Assembly: GCA_028281025.1 (NCBI GenBank)
Contig: JANQKR010000013.1
Location: 1-64,000, forward strand
Source: Croceivirga sp.
GTDB lineage: Bacteria; Bacteroidota; Bacteroidia; Flavobacteriales; Flavobacteriaceae
Direction of reading: 5' to 3'
Length of the DNA: 64,000 nucleotides
This document shows positions 25,908-38,927 of this stretch, piece by piece. Under the pieces are notes generated by a model, which did no database searches, was not told the DNA's origin, and was given only the letters and a program-made list of their open reading frames with translations. Made by a program: the position numbers and the translations under genes. The number at the start of each line of letters is the position of its first letter. The first letter of the stretch is position 1.

Positions 25908-26369
25908 TTATTGAATGGCGGTTATGGTCGAACTTTGTCCATTGAACGTAATGGTATCCGAAAGGGTTTTTCCCAACAGGAGTTTTCCTATTGGTGCATT
26001 TGCCGAAACACAAAAGATAATACGCCCGTCCATCTCAAATCTACCAGCGGAAATCGCAATATAATACCGGGCCCTATTGGTGCTTACCAAACTTCCTAGG
26101 CCCACCTTCTTAGTTCGGGTTTTTAATGGAACTTTCTGAAGGGTTTGCTGCATCCGCTCCGCTTCCAGGAGTTGATATCCCAGTTTCTCCCGTTCCAATT
26201 GTAAAAGGGCACGTCCCGTTTCGTGCTTATCCCCTGCCGTACTTTTTACTTCGGACAACAAGGCTTCCGTTATTTTTTCAATTTCTGCATGAAGCCGATC
26301 TATCCTTAATTGCACATACCGTACACAAAAATGATGGGCGGCCTGTTTTGATTTAGATGGGTTCGACAT
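25908..26369 (-). CDS. Gre-fold (GreA/GreB C-terminal-like) protein
   Basis: N-terminal coiled coil plus LGSLVSTNRARYYIAISAG...VSANAPIGKLLLGKTLSDTITFNG, like the Gre FKBP-like C-domain (SP.SPLG.ALLGK..GD.V). Confidence 0.75.
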   Translation of the reverse strand: MSNPSKSKQAAHHFCVRYVQLRIDRLHAEIEKITEALLSEVKSTAGDKHETGRALLQLEREKLGYQLLEAERMQQTLQKVPLKTRTKKVGLGSLVSTNRARYYIAISAGRFEMDGRIIFCVSANAPIGKLLLGKTLSDTITFNGQSSTITAIQ

Positions 26370-27712
26370 TAAAAAAGCAATGTAAATACCGTTTCTTGAT
26401 CGGTGATTGAATGCAGTTTTAAACTGCCCCCGTGTTGTTGCATAATCTGCTTGGACAAACTCAATCCTATTCCGGTTCCCTTGTCTTTTGTGGTAAAAAA
26501 TGGAACAAATATTTCATCTATCAATTCCTCGGGAATCCCCGGGCCATTATCCCTGACCTCAATATACTTCTTGCCATTGCGGTCCAGTGCCGCCCTTACC
26601 CAGATACTTCCTTTTTCCCTTCCCTCCAAGCTATGGATGGCATTCTTCACCAGGTTGATCAGGACTTGTGTCAATTGTTTTTCATCAATGAACAGTTCCA
26701 AATCCTTTGGTTCCGCTGTCCATTTAATTTCAATATTCTGGATGGGTTCCTTGGAGGTCAACAACTGCGTTTTATCAAATAGTTTCTTGGCAGGCACCAA
26801 GGCTTTGTCGGGTTTTGGAACACTTAAAAAACTACGATAGGACTGCACAAATTCCATCAAATCGCCCCCCTGTTCGCGAATCACTTGCAGGCCTTTTATG
26901 GAACTCGCCATTTTGTCATTGCCAATCCCCTCGGAGGATTCCCGCTCCAATGATTTAAAATGTTTTAGAATGGAATCGGAAATGGAGGTTATGGGGGTAA
27001 TGGTATTCATTATCTCATGGGTCAGGACCCGAATCAAGCGTACCCAGGAATCCGTCTCCTTTTCGTCCAGTTCGTGATGAATGTCCTGGGCCACCACCAA
27101 CAATAAGGATTGCTTGTCCAGGGTCAATGGGGTCGATTTCAACGCCAATTGTTTTTGTTCCCGCTCATTGGTGAGTTGAAACAATTTCCGTTCAAATGGT
27201 TCAAAGGGCATGAAAATTTCATAAAGCCCTTCATCTATCTGCTTCAGTTGTTTAATATGGTTCAAAGGGCTGTAATTGAGCAATCTTTCCAGTGTAGGGT
27301 TGGAAAAAAGGATATGTCCCTTTTCATTGAACGTCATAATGCCAATATTGGCCTGTTTTAGGATTTCCTGATAATAGTTCTCCCTAATCTGAAGCTGCAG
27401 GTGTACCTCCTGGATCAATCCATTGACCCGATTAAGGCTTTGGTTCAGTTCCTTAAAGGATTCTATGGTGACCTTTTCGGGAAAACGAAGCGTAAAATCC
27501 TCGTTTCTAATGGCATCAAAGAAATAGGCAATCTTTCGGTTGGTACTGTTGATAAAGGAAATCAAGGAATATACTTGGGCGGTCAACAGTAAAACTGAAA
27601 ACCCTAATGCAATATACCATTTGGCGGTGATGGAAAATGCAATGGCAATTGTGGTAAGGGTAAGGAAAATGACCCTTATAATGAGCTGTAAGTAAAAGTT
27701 TCTACTGGCCAT
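26369..27712 (-). CDS. Sensor histidine kinase, NtrB/NtrY-like, with two TM segments and a very short loop
   Basis: RVLTHEIMNTITPITSISDSI (H box), LINLVKNAIHSL (N box), DNGPGIPEEL, FFTTKDKGTGIGLSL. Confidence 0.95.
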   Translation of the reverse strand: MASRNFYLQLIIRVIFLTLTTIAIAFSITAKWYIALGFSVLLLTAQVYSLISFINSTNRKIAYFFDAIRNEDFTLRFPEKVTIESFKELNQSLNRVNGLIQEVHLQLQIRENYYQEILKQANIGIMTFNEKGHILFSNPTLERLLNYSPLNHIKQLKQIDEGLYEIFMPFEPFERKLFQLTNEREQKQLALKSTPLTLDKQSLLLVVAQDIHHELDEKETDSWVRLIRVLTHEIMNTITPITSISDSILKHFKSLERESSEGIGNDKMASSIKGLQVIREQGGDLMEFVQSYRSFLSVPKPDKALVPAKKLFDKTQLLTSKEPIQNIEIKWTAEPKDLELFIDEKQLTQVLINLVKNAIHSLEGREKGSIWVRAALDRNGKKYIEVRDNGPGIPEELIDEIFVPFFTTKDKGTGIGLSLSKQIMQQHGGSLKLHSITDQETVFTLLF

Positions 27713-29075
27713 TTGCTTTTAAGCGTTTCATTTTGTTGTACAATGTTTGCCGGGACACCCCAAGTTGATCCGCCGCCGCACTGTAGTTGCCTTCATGTTC
27801 TTCGAGCGCCCGTGTAATCATCCGATATTCCATTTCGTCCAAGGTTTTTGGGCCATCTTCAAAAGACTGTGACGGTTTGGGATGAAGAAGAAAATCGGAT
27901 GGCTTCAACACATTTCCTTCGGAAAGGATTACCGTTCGTTCCATGGTGTGTTGCAATTCCCTAATGTTACCGGGCCAAGGGTAGCCCTGCAATTTTTCCT
28001 GTGCCATATTATTGATACGGAGCCCTTGTTTGTCATATTTGTTGGCATAGCGCTTTAAAAAGAAATCGGCCAAAATCAAAATATCCCCTTTTCTTTCCCG
28101 TAGCGGGGGTACTTGGATGTGAATGGTATTGATGCGATACAGCAGATCTTCCCGAAACAGTCCATCGGCAACCATCTGTTCCAGGTTACAATTGGTGGCG
28201 CAGATCAATCGAATATCCACTGCTATGGATTTGTTCGACCCCACCCGCACAATGGATTTGTTCTGTATTGCCGATAGCAACTTCGCTTGGGTCTGAAGGG
28301 ATAGGTTGCCAATCTCGTCCAGGAACAAGGATCCTTGGTGGGCAGCTTCAAATTTACCGGCACGGTCTTCCTTGGCATCCGTAAACGCTCCTTTTTGATG
28401 CCCAAAAAGCTCACTTTCAAATAGGTTCTCGGCTATGGAGCCCATATCCACCCCAATGAAAACTTCATCCTTTCTGGAGGACAGACGGTGCAGCTCCCTC
28501 GCAATCAATTCCTTTCCAGTTCCATTTTCACCCGTTATGAGGACATTGACGTCGGTTTTGGCCACTTTACGGACCAGATTTAAAACTGCGGTAAGGGCCT
28601 TTGAATTTCCAATGATATAGTTTTTATCTTCATTGATCACCTGCTTTAGGTTGCTTTCCTTCTTTTTAAGCTGATTGATCTGTTTCTTGGATTGGCGTAG
28701 CTCATAGGCCGATTTAACCGTGGTCAACAAACGTTCATTGTTCCAGGGTTTCAATACAAAATCCGAAGCCCCTTCCTTTAGCGCTTTTACGGCCAAATCC
28801 ACTGCACCATAGGCGGTCATCATAATCACCGAAGTGTTTGGGGATTTCTTTTTGATTTCCTTCAACCAAAACAAGCCTTCGTTTCCCGTATTCACCCCTG
28901 CCGAAAAATTCATGTCCAGCAGAATGATATCAATATCCTGTAAATTGGGGAAAGACGATATTTGATTGGGATTAAAGAGCGTTTGAACGCTCTTATAATC
29001 GAACTGCAATAAAATCTCCAAAGCGCTCAATACGCTTTTATTGTCATCGATGACCAAAACCTTGGCGTCAATCAT
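27702..29075 (-). CDS. Sigma-54-dependent response regulator (NtrC family)
   Basis: Receiver domain VLVIDDNKSVLSALEILL; AAA+ GENGTGKELIARELH, GAFTDA (GAFTGA variant); Fis-type HTH NYSAAADQLGVSRQTLYNKMKRL. Confidence 0.96.
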   Translation of the reverse strand: MIDAKVLVIDDNKSVLSALEILLQFDYKSVQTLFNPNQISSFPNLQDIDIILLDMNFSAGVNTGNEGLFWLKEIKKKSPNTSVIMMTAYGAVDLAVKALKEGASDFVLKPWNNERLLTTVKSAYELRQSKKQINQLKKKESNLKQVINEDKNYIIGNSKALTAVLNLVRKVAKTDVNVLITGENGTGKELIARELHRLSSRKDEVFIGVDMGSIAENLFESELFGHQKGAFTDAKEDRAGKFEAAHQGSLFLDEIGNLSLQTQAKLLSAIQNKSIVRVGSNKSIAVDIRLICATNCNLEQMVADGLFREDLLYRINTIHIQVPPLRERKGDILILADFFLKRYANKYDKQGLRINNMAQEKLQGYPWPGNIRELQHTMERTVILSEGNVLKPSDFLLHPKPSQSFEDGPKTLDEMEYRMITRALEEHEGNYSAAADQLGVSRQTLYNKMKRLKANGQ

Positions 29076-29128: not shown

Positions 29129-29169
29129 GTGTAAAAAATTTTGACATATTTTGTATAAATATTTTACAC
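29129..29169 (+). promoter_or_regulatory. Two putative enhancer (UAS) boxes, 22 bp apart
   Basis: GTAAAAAATTTTGAC (29131-29145) and GTATAAATATTTTAC (29153-29167), both preceded by T and followed by A. Confidence 0.65.
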
Positions 29170-29231: not shown

Positions 29232-29247
29232 TGGCACAACAATCGCT
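29232..29247 (+). promoter_or_regulatory. Sigma-54 (-24/-12) promoter upstream of tolC-like gene
   Basis: TGGCACaacaaTCGCT vs TGGCAC-N5-TTGCW; one mismatch, GG-N10-GC spacing correct, 25 nt upstream of the ATG at 29273. Confidence 0.75.
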
Positions 29248-29272: not shown

Positions 29273-30616
29273 ATGAATTTAAAACACTTCTTTTTCTTAC
29301 TACTCCTTCTAGGTCATGCTCAATTGTCCGCACAAAAAGTGTGGACACTGGACGAATGTGTTGCCTACGCGATAGAGCACAATCTACAGTTGAACGATTT
29401 TGACCTTAACACCCAATCCAACAAGGAAACCTACAGGCAATCTGTCCGTAACCTGTTGCCCATCATCAATGGTTTTGCCGATTATTCCATCAATTTTGGA
29501 CGATCCATTAACCCGGAGGACAACAGTTTTGTAAATACCGAATTTTTCTCGAATAACTATTCCCTTCAATCCTCATTTGATCTTTTCCAGGGATTTCAGA
29601 AGATAAACAGTATCAAAGCTTCAAAGTTTTTGTACAAGGCCACAAAAGAAGAAAGCCTTCAGCAAAAGTACCTATTGGCCTTTAGGGTGATGTCCGCTTA
29701 TTACGATATCCAATTTATTGAAGGACTTATCACCATTTCGGAAGAACAGGTCCAAATCTCCCAAACCAACTATGACCTGGTCAAAAAACAGGTCGATCTT
29801 GGGGCGATGGCAGGAGCAGATCTTTATGAGGCTGAGTCCTTGCTCTTGGCAGACAAATTGTTGCTTACCCAAAACGAAAATAGATTGAAAGCCGCAAAGC
29901 TTACGTTGCTGCAAGCCATGAACATTGAGGACCAAAGCGATATTTCCATACAACCGGAACTGATTTCTTCCGGTGCCAGTGAAGGTTTGGAAACAATGCT
30001 GTCCGATTCCATTTTTGTAGCGGCAAAAGACTTTATGCCTTCCATAAAGGCCCAGGGATACCGGGTAAAGGCGGCAAAAAAGCAATTGGCGGCAACACGG
30101 GGGGGCCTTTTCCCTTCAATTGCATTACAAACCGGAATAGGGACGGGTTATTTTGAAACCATTAGGGACACCCTTGGAGTCACCATTCCATTTCGCGACC
30201 AAATACGCGATAATACCTTTAGGTTCGTTGGAGCTTCCTTAAACGTTCCTATTTTTAATGGTTGGACATCACGTTCCAGGGTAAAGCAACAAAAGATTGC
30301 CCTGGACCGCGCCAAAAACAACGCCAAGATCACCGAACAGGAGCTGTATCAGATCATACAACAATTGGTACAGGAACACGAAGCCCTCGCAGCCGAGACC
30401 GCACAGACCCAAAAAGGGATGGACTCACAAAGACTTGCCTTTTCCATCGCCCAAAAACGATATGAAAGAGGCATGATCAATGCCATAGAACTGGGGCAGG
30501 CCAAAACATTGTTCGCCACCGCCCAAAATCAAAATTTACAAGCACAATTGCGTTTACGCGTCAATAACAGTACACTCGATTTTTATAGAGGTTTACCAAT
30601 ATTTAATATCAATTAG
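29273..30616 (+). CDS. TolC-family outer membrane protein
   Basis: Signal peptide then KVWTLDECVAYAIEHNLQLNDFDLN...RSINPEDNSFVNTEFFSNNYSLQSSFDLFQGF; long coiled-coil segments. Confidence 0.94.
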   Translation: MNLKHFFFLLLLLGHAQLSAQKVWTLDECVAYAIEHNLQLNDFDLNTQSNKETYRQSVRNLLPIINGFADYSINFGRSINPEDNSFVNTEFFSNNYSLQSSFDLFQGFQKINSIKASKFLYKATKEESLQQKYLLAFRVMSAYYDIQFIEGLITISEEQVQISQTNYDLVKKQVDLGAMAGADLYEAESLLLADKLLLTQNENRLKAAKLTLLQAMNIEDQSDISIQPELISSGASEGLETMLSDSIFVAAKDFMPSIKAQGYRVKAAKKQLAATRGGLFPSIALQTGIGTGYFETIRDTLGVTIPFRDQIRDNTFRFVGASLNVPIFNGWTSRSRVKQQKIALDRAKNNAKITEQELYQIIQQLVQEHEALAAETAQTQKGMDSQRLAFSIAQKRYERGMINAIELGQAKTLFATAQNQNLQAQLRLRVNNSTLDFYRGLPIFNIN

Positions 30617-30618
30617 AA

Positions 30619-31869
30619 ATGGACATACAACTGGAAAAGAAAAAAGGATTGCGCCCAAAACACTACGGATATATTGCAGTGGGCGCACTACTGCTTTTTG
30701 TAGGATGGAAGCTGGCCTTTGGTAATTCCAAATCCACCTTCAGGACAGAAAAGGAACGTCTTTCCATTTCGCCGGTCTCCGAGGGAAAGTTTGATGATTA
30801 CATCACCATTAACGGAAATGTAGCACCCATAGCTACCATTTATATGGATGCCTATGAAGGGGGCCGGGTGTCGGAAAAGCTGATCGAAGAAGGGGCCATG
30901 GTGAAAAAAGGCGATATCATCCTTAAGTTGGAGAACATGAACCTCTACGAGCAAATATTGGCCAGTGAGAGCAACCTGGCCCTTAAACAGAACGATTTGC
31001 GTTCTACCAGGCTCACCTTTGATGCCAGACAGGTAGAAGGGCGCAGGTCGTTGGCCACGGCGAGTACGGACCTCCAACGATTGAAACGAAATTACGAGCA
31101 GAACGTAGTCCTATTTGAAGATGAGCTCGTGTCCAAAGAGGTATATCTGACCTCAAAGGAAAACTATGAACTGGCACAGAAGCAGTACGAAATTGTTAAG
31201 CTACAGACCGAACAGGACGATGAACTGCGCAAAACCTCCTTGGCAGGCCTGGATACCGATCTACAGCGTATGAAAAAGACCTTGGGTATGGTCTACCAAC
31301 GGTTGGATCATCTTAATGTAAGGGCCCCCGCCGATGGGCAATTGGGCTTTCTGGACGCCGAAATTGGACAGAACATTACCCAAGGGCAACGTATTGGGCA
31401 AGTCAACGTCCTGACCGATTTTAAAATTGAGGCCGATATCGATGAGCATTATATCGATCGGGTAAAACGGGACCTTTTTGCCAGTCTTGATCGCAATGGA
31501 AAGGAATTTCCCTTACGATTGCGGAAGGTATATCCAGAAGTACGTAACGGACGGTTTAAAGTGGATTTGGTTTTTACCGACGAAAAACCTGAGACCATTA
31601 GGGCCGGCCAAAGCTATAACATCAAACTGCAATTGGGGGCCTCCAGTGACGCGCTCTTATTGCCAAAGGGCGGCTTTTTTACCAGTACGGGGGGACAGTG
31701 GGTGTTTGTAGTGAACCCCAATGGTGGCGAAGCTTTAAGGCGCGACATCCGAATAGGAAAGCAAAACTCCAGATATTATGAAGTGCTTGAGGGCCTACAA
31801 CCTGGCGAACAAGTCATCACCAGTAACTATGACAGCTTTGGGGAAGCAGAACGAATCGTATTAAAATAA
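30619..31869 (+). CDS. HlyD/MFP periplasmic adaptor subunit
   Basis: N-terminal TM, YEGGRVSEKLIEEGAMVKKGDIILKLEN (lipoyl half), VRAPADGQLGFLDAEIGQNITQGQRIGQV, coiled-coil hairpin. Confidence 0.95.
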   Translation: MDIQLEKKKGLRPKHYGYIAVGALLLFVGWKLAFGNSKSTFRTEKERLSISPVSEGKFDDYITINGNVAPIATIYMDAYEGGRVSEKLIEEGAMVKKGDIILKLENMNLYEQILASESNLALKQNDLRSTRLTFDARQVEGRRSLATASTDLQRLKRNYEQNVVLFEDELVSKEVYLTSKENYELAQKQYEIVKLQTEQDDELRKTSLAGLDTDLQRMKKTLGMVYQRLDHLNVRAPADGQLGFLDAEIGQNITQGQRIGQVNVLTDFKIEADIDEHYIDRVKRDLFASLDRNGKEFPLRLRKVYPEVRNGRFKVDLVFTDEKPETIRAGQSYNIKLQLGASSDALLLPKGGFFTSTGGQWVFVVNPNGGEALRRDIRIGKQNSRYYEVLEGLQPGEQVITSNYDSFGEAERIVLK

Positions 31870-31890: not shown

Positions 31891-32514
31891 ATGAACAGAT
31901 TAATCATGATTTATGGATGTGTGCTCTTATCAAGCTCCGCCATAGCAGCAGAACAACAACACATTGGGGCGGCACCCTCCATTACGGAAGCCATACAGGC
32001 CCAGGACCGGTTTGAAAACCTTATCACCGGCATTGACCACAAGGCCATGCCTTCAACATTGGTTTCAAACCCTACCCATAAAAAGGACAAAGCGGCCTAC
32101 GATATGGACCTCAGTAAAATTGAATACATAGAGGATGAGACCATTGAATTGGGTTTTGACCCCTATGACTATCTACCGGAACATTTTGATCCCCACTCCT
32201 TTTTCCTTGACCTCAATACGGTTGAATTCATGGAAGGGGAAGAAGAAGGATTTTGTTTGGATTTTGATACCGCCAAATACCTTCCTGAAGGCTTCAATGC
32301 CCTTGCGGAGCCGAACGGTATAGCATCCATTAATTACATCGAAGGGGAGGATGTTGATCTTGGCTTCAAAACCGAGGACTATCTCCCGGAAGGGTTCTCC
32401 CCTTTTGAGCCTTATTTTGATCTGAACACCATTGAATATATTGAAATGGACGATTCCGTATTCGATTTTTTGGCATTCCCGGAAAACGGAAATTACAGCG
32501 ACTTCCACAATTGA
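31891..32514 (+). CDS. Secreted acidic repeat protein of unknown function
   Basis: Signal peptide MNRLIMIYGCVLLSSSAIAA; 3.5-4 repeats of (L)xxIxYIExEDxxLGFxxxDYLPEGFxPxxxxFD, rich in D/E. Confidence 0.85.
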   Translation: MNRLIMIYGCVLLSSSAIAAEQQHIGAAPSITEAIQAQDRFENLITGIDHKAMPSTLVSNPTHKKDKAAYDMDLSKIEYIEDETIELGFDPYDYLPEHFDPHSFFLDLNTVEFMEGEEEGFCLDFDTAKYLPEGFNALAEPNGIASINYIEGEDVDLGFKTEDYLPEGFSPFEPYFDLNTIEYIEMDDSVFDFLAFPENGNYSDFHN

Positions 32515-32553: not shown

Positions 32554-33249
32554 ATGATACAAATACAGAACCTAAAAAAGAGTTTTAGAACGGAAGAGGT
32601 AGAAACCCTGGCACTGAATGGGGTCAACCTCAGTATTGAAGAAGGTGAGTTTGTCGCGGTCATGGGGCCTTCTGGCTGTGGCAAATCCACCTTATTGAAC
32701 ATCATTGGCATGTTGGACAACCCTACCGAAGGAAGCTACAATTTTGCAGGCCATGAAGTGGCTGGATTACGGGAAAGCCAGCGGACCCAATTGCGAAAGG
32801 GAAATCTGGGGTTTGTTTTCCAAAGCTTTAACCTTATTGACGAACTCACCGTATTCGAAAATGTGGAACTTCCGCTTATCTATTTAAAAATGGGGAAAGG
32901 GGAGCGAAGGCAAAAGGTGAAGGCCGTTCTGGAACGGATGAAAATTGCACATCGGGAAAAGCATTTTCCGCAGCAACTTTCCGGAGGGCAACAACAACGG
33001 GTGGCCATCTCCAGGGCCGTTGTGACCAATCCAAAACTGATTTTGGCGGATGAGCCTACGGGTAACCTGGATTCCAAAAACGGTATTGAGGTCATGAATT
33101 TGTTGACCGAACTGAACCAAGAGGGTACCACCATAGTGATGGTGACCCACTCCGACCGCGATTCCCATTATGCCCACAGGGTGGTCAATCTATTCGATGG
33201 TCAAATCGTAACCGAAAGTCAAAACAGAACCATTGGCGCCATGGTATAG
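32554..33249 (+). CDS. ABC transporter ATP-binding protein, MacB/LolD type
   Basis: Walker A GPSGCGKSTLL, LSGGQQQRVAISRAV, Walker B LILADEPTGNLDS, VTHSD. Confidence 0.97.
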   Translation: MIQIQNLKKSFRTEEVETLALNGVNLSIEEGEFVAVMGPSGCGKSTLLNIIGMLDNPTEGSYNFAGHEVAGLRESQRTQLRKGNLGFVFQSFNLIDELTVFENVELPLIYLKMGKGERRQKVKAVLERMKIAHREKHFPQQLSGGQQQRVAISRAVVTNPKLILADEPTGNLDSKNGIEVMNLLTELNQEGTTIVMVTHSDRDSHYAHRVVNLFDGQIVTESQNRTIGAMV

Positions 33250-33283
33250 AGAGGCATATTCATCAATCAAAAAACGAACACTC

Positions 33284-34045
33284 ATGAAATCACTTGTCAA
33301 AGGTCTGAACACCAGTTTGGTCATCTCTTTGTTTGTGCTATTTCCAATCCATTGTTTTGGGCAGCCCAAGAATGTAACCGTGGACAGTTTTGACAAGGTC
33401 ATTGTAAGCCCCCACATCTCGGTAACTTTTGTTCAGGGGGCATCCGAAGCCGTAATGGTCCATACAAATACGGAACCCATGGATAAACTGCATATTGAAG
33501 TGGTGGGTTCCACCCTTCGTCTTTATCTGGACGGTGCAAAAATGACCACAAAGCACGAAAGGGTCAGAAATGAAGAATGGAAGGGCAAAAAAGCAATTTA
33601 CCAAGGCACTGTGGTGACGGCCACCGTTACTTACAAAAAACTTGAAGAACTATCCCTAAGGGGAGAAGAGCAATTCCTCTGCGAAAGTCCCATTGAACAA
33701 TCTGAATTCCGGCTAAAGCTGTACGGTGAATCCGAAGTCCATTTCAACGATGTCAATTTAGAACGCTTTACCACAACCATTTATGGGGAAAGCTATTTAG
33801 AGCTTAAAGCGGGCGTGATCGAAAAGCAGAAAATTACGGCCTACGGGGAAACAAAAGTGAATACCCTTGAGGTTGATACCCGCCATACCAAAATCACCGC
33901 TTACGGTGAGGGAAGTTATCGAATAGCGGTAAGGGACAGGCTTAAAGTTACCGCGTTTGGAGAAGCTACCATTGCTTACCAAGGCTCTCCCGAGGTAAAC
34001 AAAGGAATAGTTATAGGGGAGGCAACCATCCAAAAAATCAATTAG
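33284..34045 (+). CDS. Secreted GIN-domain (DUF2807-like) beta-helix protein
   Basis: MKSLVKGLNTSLVISLFVLFPIHCFGQ signal; VDSFDKVIVSPHISVTFVQG; recurring YGES/YGET/YGEG/FGEA turns. Start trimmed to 33284. Confidence 0.85.
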   Translation: MKSLVKGLNTSLVISLFVLFPIHCFGQPKNVTVDSFDKVIVSPHISVTFVQGASEAVMVHTNTEPMDKLHIEVVGSTLRLYLDGAKMTTKHERVRNEEWKGKKAIYQGTVVTATVTYKKLEELSLRGEEQFLCESPIEQSEFRLKLYGESEVHFNDVNLERFTTTIYGESYLELKAGVIEKQKITAYGETKVNTLEVDTRHTKITAYGEGSYRIAVRDRLKVTAFGEATIAYQGSPEVNKGIVIGEATIQKIN

Positions 34046-34048
34046 GAC

Positions 34049-36472
34049 ATGTTCAAAAACTATTTAAAAATAGCATTCAGATACCTAAAAAGCCGCCCAT
34101 CATTTACAATCATTAATATACTTGGGCTGACCTTGGGCTTTTTTTGTTTTTTTCTGCTAAATGCTTATGTATTAAAGGAAACTTCTTTTGACAAAAACCA
34201 AAAAAGGGTTTATCGTTTGCTTCAAAAAACAACACATGAGAATGGTACCGTACGCGAAATGGCCCAAATTGCCCCAAAAGTAGGCGCTGAGGCAAAACGG
34301 CTATTTAAAGAAATAGAAAACTATACCCAAATTTTTTACATGGGTCGTAGAAATGTAGGGAACGACCCAGAGACTGTAACCCATCAGGAGATTGCCATAT
34401 TGGATGATAATTTTTTAAAGGTTTTTGACTTTCCAGTACTGGAAGGCACCGTTGACGAGTTGTCCAACAATCCTAATGGGATCATCTTGACCAAATCCAC
34501 TAAAGCATTCTATTTTGGCCAAGAACCGGCACTAGGCAAAATTTTGAAAATGGGTGAAGAGCTATACCCAGTAGTGGGCGTTTTGGATGATTTTCCAGAA
34601 AACTCCCATTTGGAAAACTTAGTGTTTATGAGTAGCCAGATGGCTTATGGCATTTTTGAATGGTTCAATGAATTTATGTCATCTAGTTGGGCAAACAATC
34701 AATTGATCACTTATTTCAAAATATTGCCTGATACCGATGTTCAACAGTTAGGGAAAAAAATCACCGTACTGGTCAAAGAAAATTATCCTGAAAACCTGAC
34801 GTTCAACAGCACATTTTCAGTACAGCCTATTCAAGATATACATCTTTATGAAAACAATGTTGAAGGTGAAATGAACAAAGCCAAAGGCAATGGCCTTTAT
34901 GTCAATTTATTCTTTTGGATTAGCATTCTAATTCTCTTAGTGGCCTGTTTCAATTATGCCGGTTTACTGAACATTGCCTTTATTGACCGATTCAAAGAAA
35001 TAGCACTTCGTCAAATTGTGGGGGCGGACAAATCAAACTTATTGCAACAATTTTTATTGGAAAGTCTTCTGTTAATATCAGTTTCCATGGTTTTGGCGTA
35101 TGCCCTCTTATGGTTATTGCAGCCATTGGTCCAAAAATGGTTTAGTACCACATTGGATTTGACGCAGGTTCCTTTAACGGGAATGTTGTTGGTAATGGTT
35201 GTTGGTTTAATTCTAGGGCTATTATCTGTAGCTTTTCCTTTTTGGACAATTATTGGAACCGGTATTTCTTCATCCCTAAAGAACACTGTTTCTGGAGGTT
35301 CTAAATTACCCTTTCGAAGATTGATGTTAACTTTTCAATTTATTGCGGTTATTGTATTTATTACGAGCTCCTTGGTTTTCAATAGGCAAATAAATTTCCT
35401 AAAAGACAAAGAACTTGGCTTTGAAAAAGAAGGCTTGGCAACAATAGACATCAATAGTGGAATATTAAGAAGGCAATTCCAGGCTATCAAAAGTGAGTTT
35501 TTAAGAATTCCTGAGGTCAGTAATGCTACCGTAAGTTCCAGGGTGCCCGGAGAGTGGAAGACTATTCCTGTTGCCAAAGTAAAACGGAGTGGACAAGATA
35601 TTTCAGAATCCAAGGATGTGCTCTTTTTTGGTGCGGATGAGGACTTCGTGGAGACTTATGAAATTGAGCTTTTGGAAGGGTCTAATTTTGATGGCAATCC
35701 CAATGATAGTAACAAAATACTTATCAACAAGGCAGCTGCATTGGCCTTAGAGCTGGAAACACCCATAGGACAGTTTATAGAAGTACCCAGTTGGAATTAT
35801 GGCGGTAGCGCTGCGAATCTAACCGAACCTTTTAGGGGCCAAATTAGTGGAATTGTTGAAGATTTTCAAATTGAGGATTTTAAAACAACCATTAAACCTA
35901 TAATCATAGCGAATTGGAACAATCCAATACATTCCATCGATTATTATACCCTTCGAATAAAAACACCGGATTGGGCAGGCACCCTGGCCGCTCTCAAGAG
36001 TGTCAATGATTCTTTTGATCCGAAAACACCCATGGAATTGAATATCCTGGACGATAAGTTTGCTCGTTTTTTTGAAAAAGATTTGGAACATTTTAGGCTC
36101 TTGAACTTTTTCTCGATAATCGTCATATTTCTTTCCTGCATGGGCCTCTTTGCAACAAGCGCTTTTGTAGCAAGAAGCAGGACAAAGGAAATCGGAATCA
36201 GAAAAGTGTTGGGTTCAGGCGTTCTTGAATTGCTTTACCTTCTATCACAAGACTTTATGAGGTTGGTATTGATCGGTTTTCTGATTGCCATACCTATTGC
36301 TTGGTATTTATTGAGCAATTGGCTTTCCGGGTTTGCCTATCGTACAGAATTTGCTTGGTGGGCAATGTTCCTGGCAGGTTTAATTTGTCTGTTCTTGACC
36401 CTACTTACTGTGAGTTTTCAAGCCATAAAATCGGCAATGGCAAACCCGGTAAATAGTTTACGTACAGAATAA
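34049..36472 (+). CDS. FtsX/MacB-type ABC permease #2
   Basis: MFKNYLKIAFRYLKSRPSFTIINILGL...SRTKEIGIRKVLGSGV...ANPVNSLRTE. Confidence 0.95.
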   Translation: MFKNYLKIAFRYLKSRPSFTIINILGLTLGFFCFFLLNAYVLKETSFDKNQKRVYRLLQKTTHENGTVREMAQIAPKVGAEAKRLFKEIENYTQIFYMGRRNVGNDPETVTHQEIAILDDNFLKVFDFPVLEGTVDELSNNPNGIILTKSTKAFYFGQEPALGKILKMGEELYPVVGVLDDFPENSHLENLVFMSSQMAYGIFEWFNEFMSSSWANNQLITYFKILPDTDVQQLGKKITVLVKENYPENLTFNSTFSVQPIQDIHLYENNVEGEMNKAKGNGLYVNLFFWISILILLVACFNYAGLLNIAFIDRFKEIALRQIVGADKSNLLQQFLLESLLLISVSMVLAYALLWLLQPLVQKWFSTTLDLTQVPLTGMLLVMVVGLILGLLSVAFPFWTIIGTGISSSLKNTVSGGSKLPFRRLMLTFQFIAVIVFITSSLVFNRQINFLKDKELGFEKEGLATIDINSGILRRQFQAIKSEFLRIPEVSNATVSSRVPGEWKTIPVAKVKRSGQDISESKDVLFFGADEDFVETYEIELLEGSNFDGNPNDSNKILINKAAALALELETPIGQFIEVPSWNYGGSAANLTEPFRGQISGIVEDFQIEDFKTTIKPIIIANWNNPIHSIDYYTLRIKTPDWAGTLAALKSVNDSFDPKTPMELNILDDKFARFFEKDLEHFRLLNFFSIIVIFLSCMGLFATSAFVARSRTKEIGIRKVLGSGVLELLYLLSQDFMRLVLIGFLIAIPIAWYLLSNWLSGFAYRTEFAWWAMFLAGLICLFLTLLTVSFQAIKSAMANPVNSLRTE

Positions 36473-36491: not shown

Positions 36492-38927
36492 ATGTTCAAA
36501 AACTATTTAAAAATCGCTTGGAGAAATTTAAAAAAACAACCGTTTTTTACCTTTCTAAATACTTTCGGACTTGCTATTGGCATCGCTGGAAGTTTGCTCA
36601 TTTGTCTGTATATCCATGATGAGTTAAGTTTTGATAGGATGTTCGCGGATGCGGAACGTATACACCGGGTCAATGCCGATATTAAGTTTGGCGGAGAGGC
36701 GCGGAAATTTGCCGTTTCCCCAGCACCGATGGCAGAAACCATGGACGCTGATTTCTCTGAAGTGGAATTGGTCACCCGATTCAGGACCCGGGGGAGTGCC
36801 TTGATCAGAAAAGCGGATACCGAAATCAATGTAAAAGAGCTTCAATCCACCTATGTGGATTCCACTTTTTTTAAGATGTTCGGAATCAAACTTCTTGTAG
36901 GTGATCCCACTACGGCCTTAAAATCCCCCAACACCCTGGTATTGACCAAAACTGCGGCAGAAAAACATTTTGGAATCGAAGAGGCCCTTGGTCAAAACCT
37001 ACTTGTGAACGATACAGAGACGTATACCGTGGCCGGGGTAATAGATGATTTGCCCTCCAATTCGTTTTTAAGGGACTACACAATTTTTATGGCCATGGCC
37101 GGCTACGAGGATTCACGCATTGTGAATTGGGCCGGTAATAACTATCACACCTTTTTTAAGCTTATCCCTACCGCCAATGTTGCCAACCTGCAGGAGCCGT
37201 TGCGTGATTTTTTGGGCAAGTACGTAATTCCCGGTGTCCAACAATTTATGCCCGGCATTACCGAAGAACAATTTAAGGCCGCTGGCAATCATCTGATCTA
37301 CAGCACGATTCCCCTGGTGGATATACATCTACATGCGGATAGAGTGGCCGAAATGAGTGCCAACAACGATATCCAAAGCATTTATATTCTTTCCTTCATA
37401 GCAGCCTTCCTTATTGTATTGGCCTGCGTAAACTTCATGAATTTGTCCACGGCACACTCCCTAAAACGGGCAAAGGAAGTGGGCATTCGAAAAACGTTGG
37501 GTTCCAAAAAAAGGGAACTTATCAGACAGTTTTTAATGGAATCGGGTTTGGTTTCCTTCGGTTCACTATTGATCGCATTGGTCTTGGCAACACTGGCACT
37601 TCCTTTCTTCAATGAATTGGCGGACAAAAGTATTTCCATTCCTTTTGACAGCCCGGGGTTTTGGTCAATTTTAATTGTGGCCGGAATTGTTCTGGGCCTA
37701 TTGTCTGGTAGTTACCCTGCTTTTTTTATGTCAAAATTCATTCCTGTCAAAGTACTAAAAGGAGCCAGCAGTAATAGTATAGGAGGAGGAAAAATCAGAA
37801 ATGCCCTGGTAATTTTTCAATTTTCCATTTCCATCTTTTTGATTATCAGTACATTGGTCGTCTACCAGCAACTCAACTTTATCCAGAACAAGGATTTGGG
37901 TTTTTCAAAAGATCAGGTACTTATTGTGAATGATGTGTATGTGATCGGCAATCAATCCACATCGTTCAAAGAAGAAGTCGGGAAACTCGGTTTTGTGAAG
38001 AACGTCACCTTAAGCAGCTATTTTCCGACCCCTTCAAGTAGGTCCGATAATGTGTTTATGCCCATGGATGGCGTGACCGATCAGGAGAATGCCGTAAGTA
38101 TGCAAACTTGGGGCGTGGATCACGATTACATCACAACGTTGGGACTTGAGGTCATTGCCGGCAGGGATTTTGACCGCCGTTTTAAGAGCGATTCAACCAG
38201 TATCATTGTAAATGAATCCGCCGTTGCCGTAATCGGGGTTTCCCCGGAGGAAGCGCTGGGGATGCAGTACACCCCGGATGTAGGTGAGGACAACCCGCAA
38301 TTTTTTAAAATTATTGGGGTCGTAAAGGACTTCCATTTTTCACCGTTTAGAAATGAGATCGAATCGTTGAGCATGCATTTGGGCAATTTTTCCGATGCCA
38401 TGGCGGTCAAATTGGAACAAGGCAGTTTTTCCACTGCCATAAGCAGTATTGAGCGTATTTGGAACGATTTGGCCCCAGGGCAACCTTTTGACTATTATTT
38501 TATGGAGGATTCCTTCAACAACACCTATCAATCCGAGCAGCGCTTGGGGAGGATCTTTATCATTTTCACCGTTTTATCCATCATCATCGCTTGCCTCGGG
38601 CTCTTTGGCCTGGCTACGTTCAATGCCGAAAAGCGTACCAAGGAAATTGGGGTCAGAAAGGTGATGGGCGCCGGGGTGGGCCAAATTGTTTACAGGCTTA
38701 CCATGGATTTCCTAAAACTCGTTGGGGTGGCCATTTTGGTTTCCATTCCCTTAGGTTGGTATGTCATGGGCAAATGGCTGGAAGATTTTTCGTACCGTAT
38801 AGAAATTGGCTGGTGGGTTTTCATCCTGGCGGCACTATTGGCCCTGATCATATCCATTGTAACCGTTAGCTATCAAAGTATCAAAGCGGCAATCGTAAAC
38901 CCGGTAAAAAGTTTGAGAACAGAATAA
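36492..38927 (+). CDS. FtsX/MacB-type ABC permease #3
   Basis: MFKNYLKIAWRNLKKQPFFTFLNTFGLAIG...KRTKEIGVRKVMGAGV...VNPVKSLRTE. Confidence 0.95.
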   Translation: MFKNYLKIAWRNLKKQPFFTFLNTFGLAIGIAGSLLICLYIHDELSFDRMFADAERIHRVNADIKFGGEARKFAVSPAPMAETMDADFSEVELVTRFRTRGSALIRKADTEINVKELQSTYVDSTFFKMFGIKLLVGDPTTALKSPNTLVLTKTAAEKHFGIEEALGQNLLVNDTETYTVAGVIDDLPSNSFLRDYTIFMAMAGYEDSRIVNWAGNNYHTFFKLIPTANVANLQEPLRDFLGKYVIPGVQQFMPGITEEQFKAAGNHLIYSTIPLVDIHLHADRVAEMSANNDIQSIYILSFIAAFLIVLACVNFMNLSTAHSLKRAKEVGIRKTLGSKKRELIRQFLMESGLVSFGSLLIALVLATLALPFFNELADKSISIPFDSPGFWSILIVAGIVLGLLSGSYPAFFMSKFIPVKVLKGASSNSIGGGKIRNALVIFQFSISIFLIISTLVVYQQLNFIQNKDLGFSKDQVLIVNDVYVIGNQSTSFKEEVGKLGFVKNVTLSSYFPTPSSRSDNVFMPMDGVTDQENAVSMQTWGVDHDYITTLGLEVIAGRDFDRRFKSDSTSIIVNESAVAVIGVSPEEALGMQYTPDVGEDNPQFFKIIGVVKDFHFSPFRNEIESLSMHLGNFSDAMAVKLEQGSFSTAISSIERIWNDLAPGQPFDYYFMEDSFNNTYQSEQRLGRIFIIFTVLSIIIACLGLFGLATFNAEKRTKEIGVRKVMGAGVGQIVYRLTMDFLKLVGVAILVSIPLGWYVMGKWLEDFSYRIEIGWWVFILAALLALIISIVTVSYQSIKAAIVNPVKSLRTE

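Follow-up and report, generated by a model that had tools for sequence, protein, structure and literature searches.

Several small exported proteins are under envelope-stress control, among them the helical proteins Spy, CpxP and ZraP (LTXXQ). CpxP and ZraP are secreted feedback proteins that tune the Cpx and Zra systems, respectively, and ZraP expression is governed by a sigma-54 two-component system. In Gram-positive peptide-signal systems, LytTR regulators are combined with exporters and the signal carries a double-glycine leader. MacB-type pumps can take periplasmic substrates. Promoters read by ECF sigma factors have AAC in the -35 element and GTC in the -10 element. In P. gingivalis, a sigma factor gene stands ahead of a small gene and one or more DUF4252 genes (PG_0214-0216 and PG_0985-0987; PMC10101095).

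We analysed a 64,000-nucleotide stretch of Croceivirga sp. (GCA_028281025.1, contig JANQKR010000013.1; hereafter the window), in which the gene for a putatively secreted acidic repeat protein, REP, is one cistron of a MacAB-TolC-type operon of the kind found in Bacteroidota. REP resembles no part of the pump. Like Spy, CpxP and ZraP, it appears to be a small exported protein under envelope-stress control; unlike them, it has no match to Pfam LTXXQ, and AlphaFold2 predicted no helical fold for it in models of low confidence. In one genomic context REP also recalls the LytTR peptide-signal systems, with a small secreted product encoded beside a LytS/LytTR pair. It departs from them as a long, acidic protein built of repeats, and where they have a double-glycine leader, its N-terminus looks like a Sec-type signal.

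A repeat protein gene within an efflux operon

The operon runs TolC, HlyD, REP, ATPase, DUF2807 and two MacB_PCD/FtsX permeases (Table 1). The REP reading frame starts with ATG 21 bp past the end of the HlyD gene and lies 39 bp ahead of the ABC ATPase gene. Its product has three full repeats with a period of 34-36 aa and one partial repeat, and the positions given in the initial annotation for YI/FM (residues 79, 113, 149 and 183) and LPE (residues 95, 131 and 165) were exact. The protein had also been called strongly acidic and rich in aromatic residues, and its composition agrees, with a calculated pI of 4.05 past residue 22 and 42 D/E, 8 K/R and 27 F/Y/W. Secretion is predicted from a hydrophobic N-terminus (maximum 12-residue hydropathy mean of 2.1) followed by an AIA-A site, which is support for a signal peptide at the level of hydropathy. 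Every REP-family copy displayed was acidic and had a hydrophobic N-terminus.

Table 1. Features of the REP locus, with positions in the window
Feature	Position	Strand	Basis
Histidine kinase, divergent from efflux operon	26369..27712	-	HATPase_c
NtrC-family sigma-54 response regulator, divergent	27702..29075	-	Response_reg + Sigma54_activat + HTH_8
17-bp palindrome TGTAAAAAATTTTGACA, putative regulator site	29130..29146	.	position conserved in relatives
17-bp palindrome TGTATAAATATTTTACA, 22 bp from first	29152..29168	.	position conserved in relatives
Sigma-54-like promoter TGGCAC-N5-TCGC, 41 bp before TolC	29232..29247	+	
TolC-type outer-membrane factor (OEP)	29273..30616	+	Pfam PF02321
HlyD-type adaptor	30619..31869	+	Pfam PF13437/PF16576
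REP, putatively secreted acidic repeat protein, 207 aa	31891..32514	+	ORF calls, profile, dN/dS
Signal-peptide-like N-terminus, aa 1-20	31891..31950	+	sequence, hydropathy
Repeat unit 1, aa 71-104	32101..32202	+	
Repeat unit 2, aa 105-141	32203..32313	+	
Repeat unit 3, aa 142-174	32314..32412	+	
Partial repeat unit 4, aa 175-199, without YLPEGF	32413..32487	+	
ABC ATPase (MacB type)	32554..33249	+	Pfam PF00005
DUF2807 secreted protein	33281..34045	+	Pfam PF10988
MacB_PCD/FtsX permease, first	34049..36472	+	
MacB_PCD/FtsX permease, second	36492..38927	+	

A repeat-unit profile of 24 rows, which already included the three units concerned, matched three units of the window REP with E values of 2e-15 to 3e-13. 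Since the repeats match this profile and recur in paralogues and orthologues, and the gene is under purifying selection, they are not a chance pattern. Between species, dN/dS was about 0.2-0.3 for REP and 0.01-0.04 for the ATPase, with dS saturated in the comparisons that involve G009; REP evolves much faster than the ATPase, under purifying selection that is evident but less tight. AlphaFold2 returned no usable fold, either for full-length REP (mean pLDDT 37; alignment of 7 rows) or for a two-unit piece (mean pLDDT 66; 29 rows). From these models, built on shallow alignments, REP may be largely unfolded.

REP belongs to an uncatalogued repeat family of Flavobacteriaceae

REP is a member of an uncatalogued, previously unnamed repeat family that, among the genomes sampled, occurs only in Flavobacteriaceae. 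With a 32-position unit profile the family was found in 72/251 Flavobacteriaceae genomes, and no match was obtained outside Flavobacteriaceae in class and phylum genome samples, which over-represent the most complete genomes. A protein-level filter required one LGF..YLP-type unit, and 85 proteins with 245 units, spaced mostly at 33-37 aa, gave the consensus D[LI]NSIxYIEEEEE[IV][DE]LGFDTxxYLPEGFDPY. The window protein has the ~35-aa units with LGF[DE]T..YLP..F that define the family. At least one REP gene is present in 11/11 genomes of the genus. The genome of the window has three more, a 245-aa/102-aa pair and a 92-aa gene, and a full-length REP query of genome contigs returned six named Croceivirga-type loci.

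The initial annotation had been unable to assign the protein to a known family, which held up: no Pfam, NCBIfam, PADLOC or PHROGs profile matched the window protein. When 31 diverse members were compared with the profile libraries, matches were scattered over one or two members each and none was family-wide; the weak matches to TIGR00295, DUF7652 and phrog_3907 were ascribed to biased repeats. REP had no sequence match to a solved structure among PDB chains (best E 0.32), a literature search did not find the string YLPEGF, and a phage, plasmid or IMG/VR origin was rejected after zero matches in those collections.

The YLPxxF string served as the search anchor, so its 100% conservation of L, P and F is by construction; outside the anchor, L (86%), F (87%), T (78%), D (73%), Y (71%) and P (67%) are conserved. 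Acidic runs occur in most units, and together with a pI of about 4 they would suit a charge or metal sponge that takes up cationic peptides or divalent metals and works with the pump, as would the promoter motif similar to that of MacAB-type exporters and the co-occurrence with them described below. We nevertheless regard a sponge as quite unlikely, because conservation is strongest at L, G, F, T, Y, LP and F and not at the acidic residues, the unit has no conserved Cys/His metal motif, and most REP copies have no link to efflux genes.

The efflux-operon copy is a lineage-specific insertion

An orthologous efflux operon was found in roughly 30 genera, and REP is missing from nearly all of the operons measured. 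The HlyD-ATPase spacing is 10-148 bp in relatives without REP there, compared with 671-684 bp in four Croceivirga genomes (G000, G004, G005 and G009) and 578 bp in a genome of a second genus (G240), all with REP inside. Judged by this distribution, REP was inserted between the HlyD and ATPase genes in particular lineages. In a REP tree, the G240 insert clusters with the main-site REP of the same genome (support 97/94), which suggests that REP was captured at this slot a second time, perhaps independently; a single origin was not rejected by an AU test on the tree (p = 0.246).

A duplicated REP gene might have landed in the HlyD-ATPase gap as a neutral hitch-hiker, functionally unrelated to the pump. 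The patchiness of the insertion, which is absent from G010 even though this is the closest HlyD relative of G009, and the rapid evolution of REP relative to the ATPase both fit such a history, but purifying selection on REP and occupation of the same slot in a second genus, perhaps independently, make it distinctly unlikely. Export of REP as a substrate of the MacAB-TolC-type pump, one of the roles offered in the initial annotation, is highly improbable: although the gene lies within the operon, is kept in the four Croceivirga genomes and is present in a second genus, nearly all measured relatives have the operon without REP, most REP genes are located elsewhere, and the Sec-type signal makes an ABC-exporter substrate unlikely.

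We classified 68 REP loci by our own clustering of neighbouring genes; because repeat score decided which loci were sampled, with several per genome, the resulting fractions are approximate. The main site (46/68) is a conserved chromosomal position between an SLC13 transporter gene and a metzincin gene, in a region that also holds a Spy-like gene. Eight of the 68 lie upstream of LytS/LytTR genes, two (that of the window and one from another genus) within the efflux operon between HlyD and ATPase, ten elsewhere, and two had no REP recognised by pattern. The Spy-like gene, so named here and without a Pfam match, is distinct from the REP gene that it adjoins at this site. In six loci (L114, L157, L163, L165, L167 and L174), REP is directly downstream of a conserved tandem of putative alpha/beta hydrolases of ~292 and ~274 aa. 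A 92-aa paralogue (L007:4444-4719) is found a few genes downstream, on the same strand, of an HlyD-like/TolC-like pair, both named from sequence.

The initial annotation had tied REP to the exporter and counted homologues unlinked to ABC exporters as evidence against this, and with only 2/68 loci between HlyD and ATPase the homologues are largely unlinked. The exporter link itself is real, as seen in the four Croceivirga genomes and the second genus, in co-occurrence and in a similar ECF-type motif, but it is secondary. The family was present in 31/38 genomes with the orthologous efflux operon versus 41/213 without it, in counts uncorrected for phylogeny. As read from these comparisons, the association of REP with the pump is statistical, regulatory and, in two genera, physical.

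Three types of candidate control element accompany REP genes

A rigid motif, TGTAACA-N16-GTCTT, was found upstream of main-site REP genes. An ECF-type motif was present upstream of 30/76 REP genes versus 1.8 expected in shuffles, and TGTAAC-N16-18-GTC upstream of 29/84 REP genes versus 4/823 other genes at the same loci; this test is not independent of discovery, because the motif was first seen in those same regions. The tests at the sigma gene and in the efflux gap are independent of it. In 23 of the 24 genomes tested, the same motif stands ~75 bp ahead of a conserved ECF sigma gene (0.015 expected), an arrangement that looks autoregulatory. In the genome of the window, this locus (L188:1190-4970; G000:C10) comprises the sigma gene, a small gene without a Pfam match that may encode an anti-sigma factor, DUF4252-type genes and an MscS-like gene, the last named from sequence. 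By arrangement alone, the module is likened to those of P. gingivalis, whose gene order it shares, and no REP-like gene was seen at the latter in the available portion of the article (PMC10101095); the link between the ECF/DUF4252 module and REP is the promoter motif only. The -10 side of the motif is mostly AGTCTT at REP genes and CGTCTT at the sigma gene.

Strict ECF-type sites numbered 12 in the genome of the window versus 5 for a reversed control pattern, so several of the 12 are chance. Some of these sites precede genes, among them the ECF gene and the gene for the 245-aa REP, and others belong to a second MacAB-type operon. In the second operon (L187:1614 and L187:5381; G000:C30), the sites lie before the permease pair and in the HlyD-ATPase gap, the slot that REP occupies in the window operon. 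Across REP-less efflux operons, the related motif TGT[AC]AC-N17-GTC was found in strict form in the HlyD-ATPase gap of 12 of 36 loci (0.17 expected), with some gaps holding inverted repeats that could mimic it. In the gaps of L121 and L141, GTCACATCGAGCGCAGTCGAGATGTC-like sequences resemble a dispersed intergenic repeat and fit the motif with one extra base of spacing. No ECF-type site was present anywhere in the window, including before its REP copy, and none upstream of the Spy-like neighbour gene at the main site (0/21). A literature search found nothing on a TGTAAC-N17-GTC promoter in Bacteroidetes. We infer ECF control of the REP family, its specificity being drawn from likeness of motif, which other ECF factors may share.

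REP genes linked to LytS/LytTR carry CGTTTCAC-like direct repeats upstream. Pairs of this type exactly 21 bp apart occurred in 5/9 upstream regions of the LytS/LytTR context versus 0/75 other REP genes, and this phasing is the geometry expected for a LytTR regulator. In the window, the palindrome pair and a TGGCA[CT] -24-like element ahead of the efflux operon keep their positions in almost every relative whose sequence extends far enough, across many genera. The -12 part is variable, with the full sigma-54 pattern fitting 9/31, so the case for sigma-54 control comes mainly from the type of regulator together with the palindromes and the TGGCAC element; the latter two are a candidate NtrC-type enhancer and promoter for the operon.

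Since REP genes are tied to three kinds of signalling, namely LytS/LytR at the eight loci upstream of those genes, the NtrC-type pair in the window and the ECF-type promoter at the main site, REP could serve in feedback or sensing, as a secreted ligand for the sensor domain of the histidine kinase or anti-sigma factor that controls it, and so tune the response. This is unlikely in our view, because the kinases and sigma factors vary by context while the repeat motif is constant, and the main-site REP is far from the putative sigma gene.

A possible role for REP in envelope stress

We tentatively favour, at slightly less than even likelihood, REP as an envelope-stress-induced, largely unfolded, multivalent acidic accessory protein, exported by Sec and captured here by an efflux operon. 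Upon envelope stress, REP would be made and exported through Sec to the periplasm or the outside. Each ~35-aa unit brings together an acidic run (EEEEE) and an aromatic/proline motif under strong conservation (LGFDTxxYLPEGFDPY), so that a single molecule could present the same binding surface two to five times. The ancestral copy is apparently driven by an ECF sigma factor and other copies probably by the LytS/LytTR pair, whereas the window copy sits in a MacAB-TolC-type operon seemingly controlled by an NtrC/sigma-54 two-component system. Owing to its insertion within the adaptor-ATPase operon, this copy would be made together with the pump, and it may bind and buffer whatever envelope insult the pump answers. 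Against general buffering, the strictness with which the aromatic motif is conserved points to a single dedicated partner. A broader proposal is possible but doubtful as a whole: that this family of disordered, secreted proteins is a shared output of unrelated envelope-stress switches (ECF sigma, LytTR and NtrC/sigma-54) in Flavobacteriaceae, was captured more than once by a MacAB-type operon at the same slot, and contributes to defence of the envelope as a multivalent partner.

These results add an uncatalogued protein repeat family to Flavobacteriaceae, propose a promoter for a widespread ECF sigma factor linked to DUF4252, and tie a candidate ECF regulon to MacAB-type exporters. Should the repeats prove to bind a defined partner in the envelope, REP would represent a new class of stress protein.
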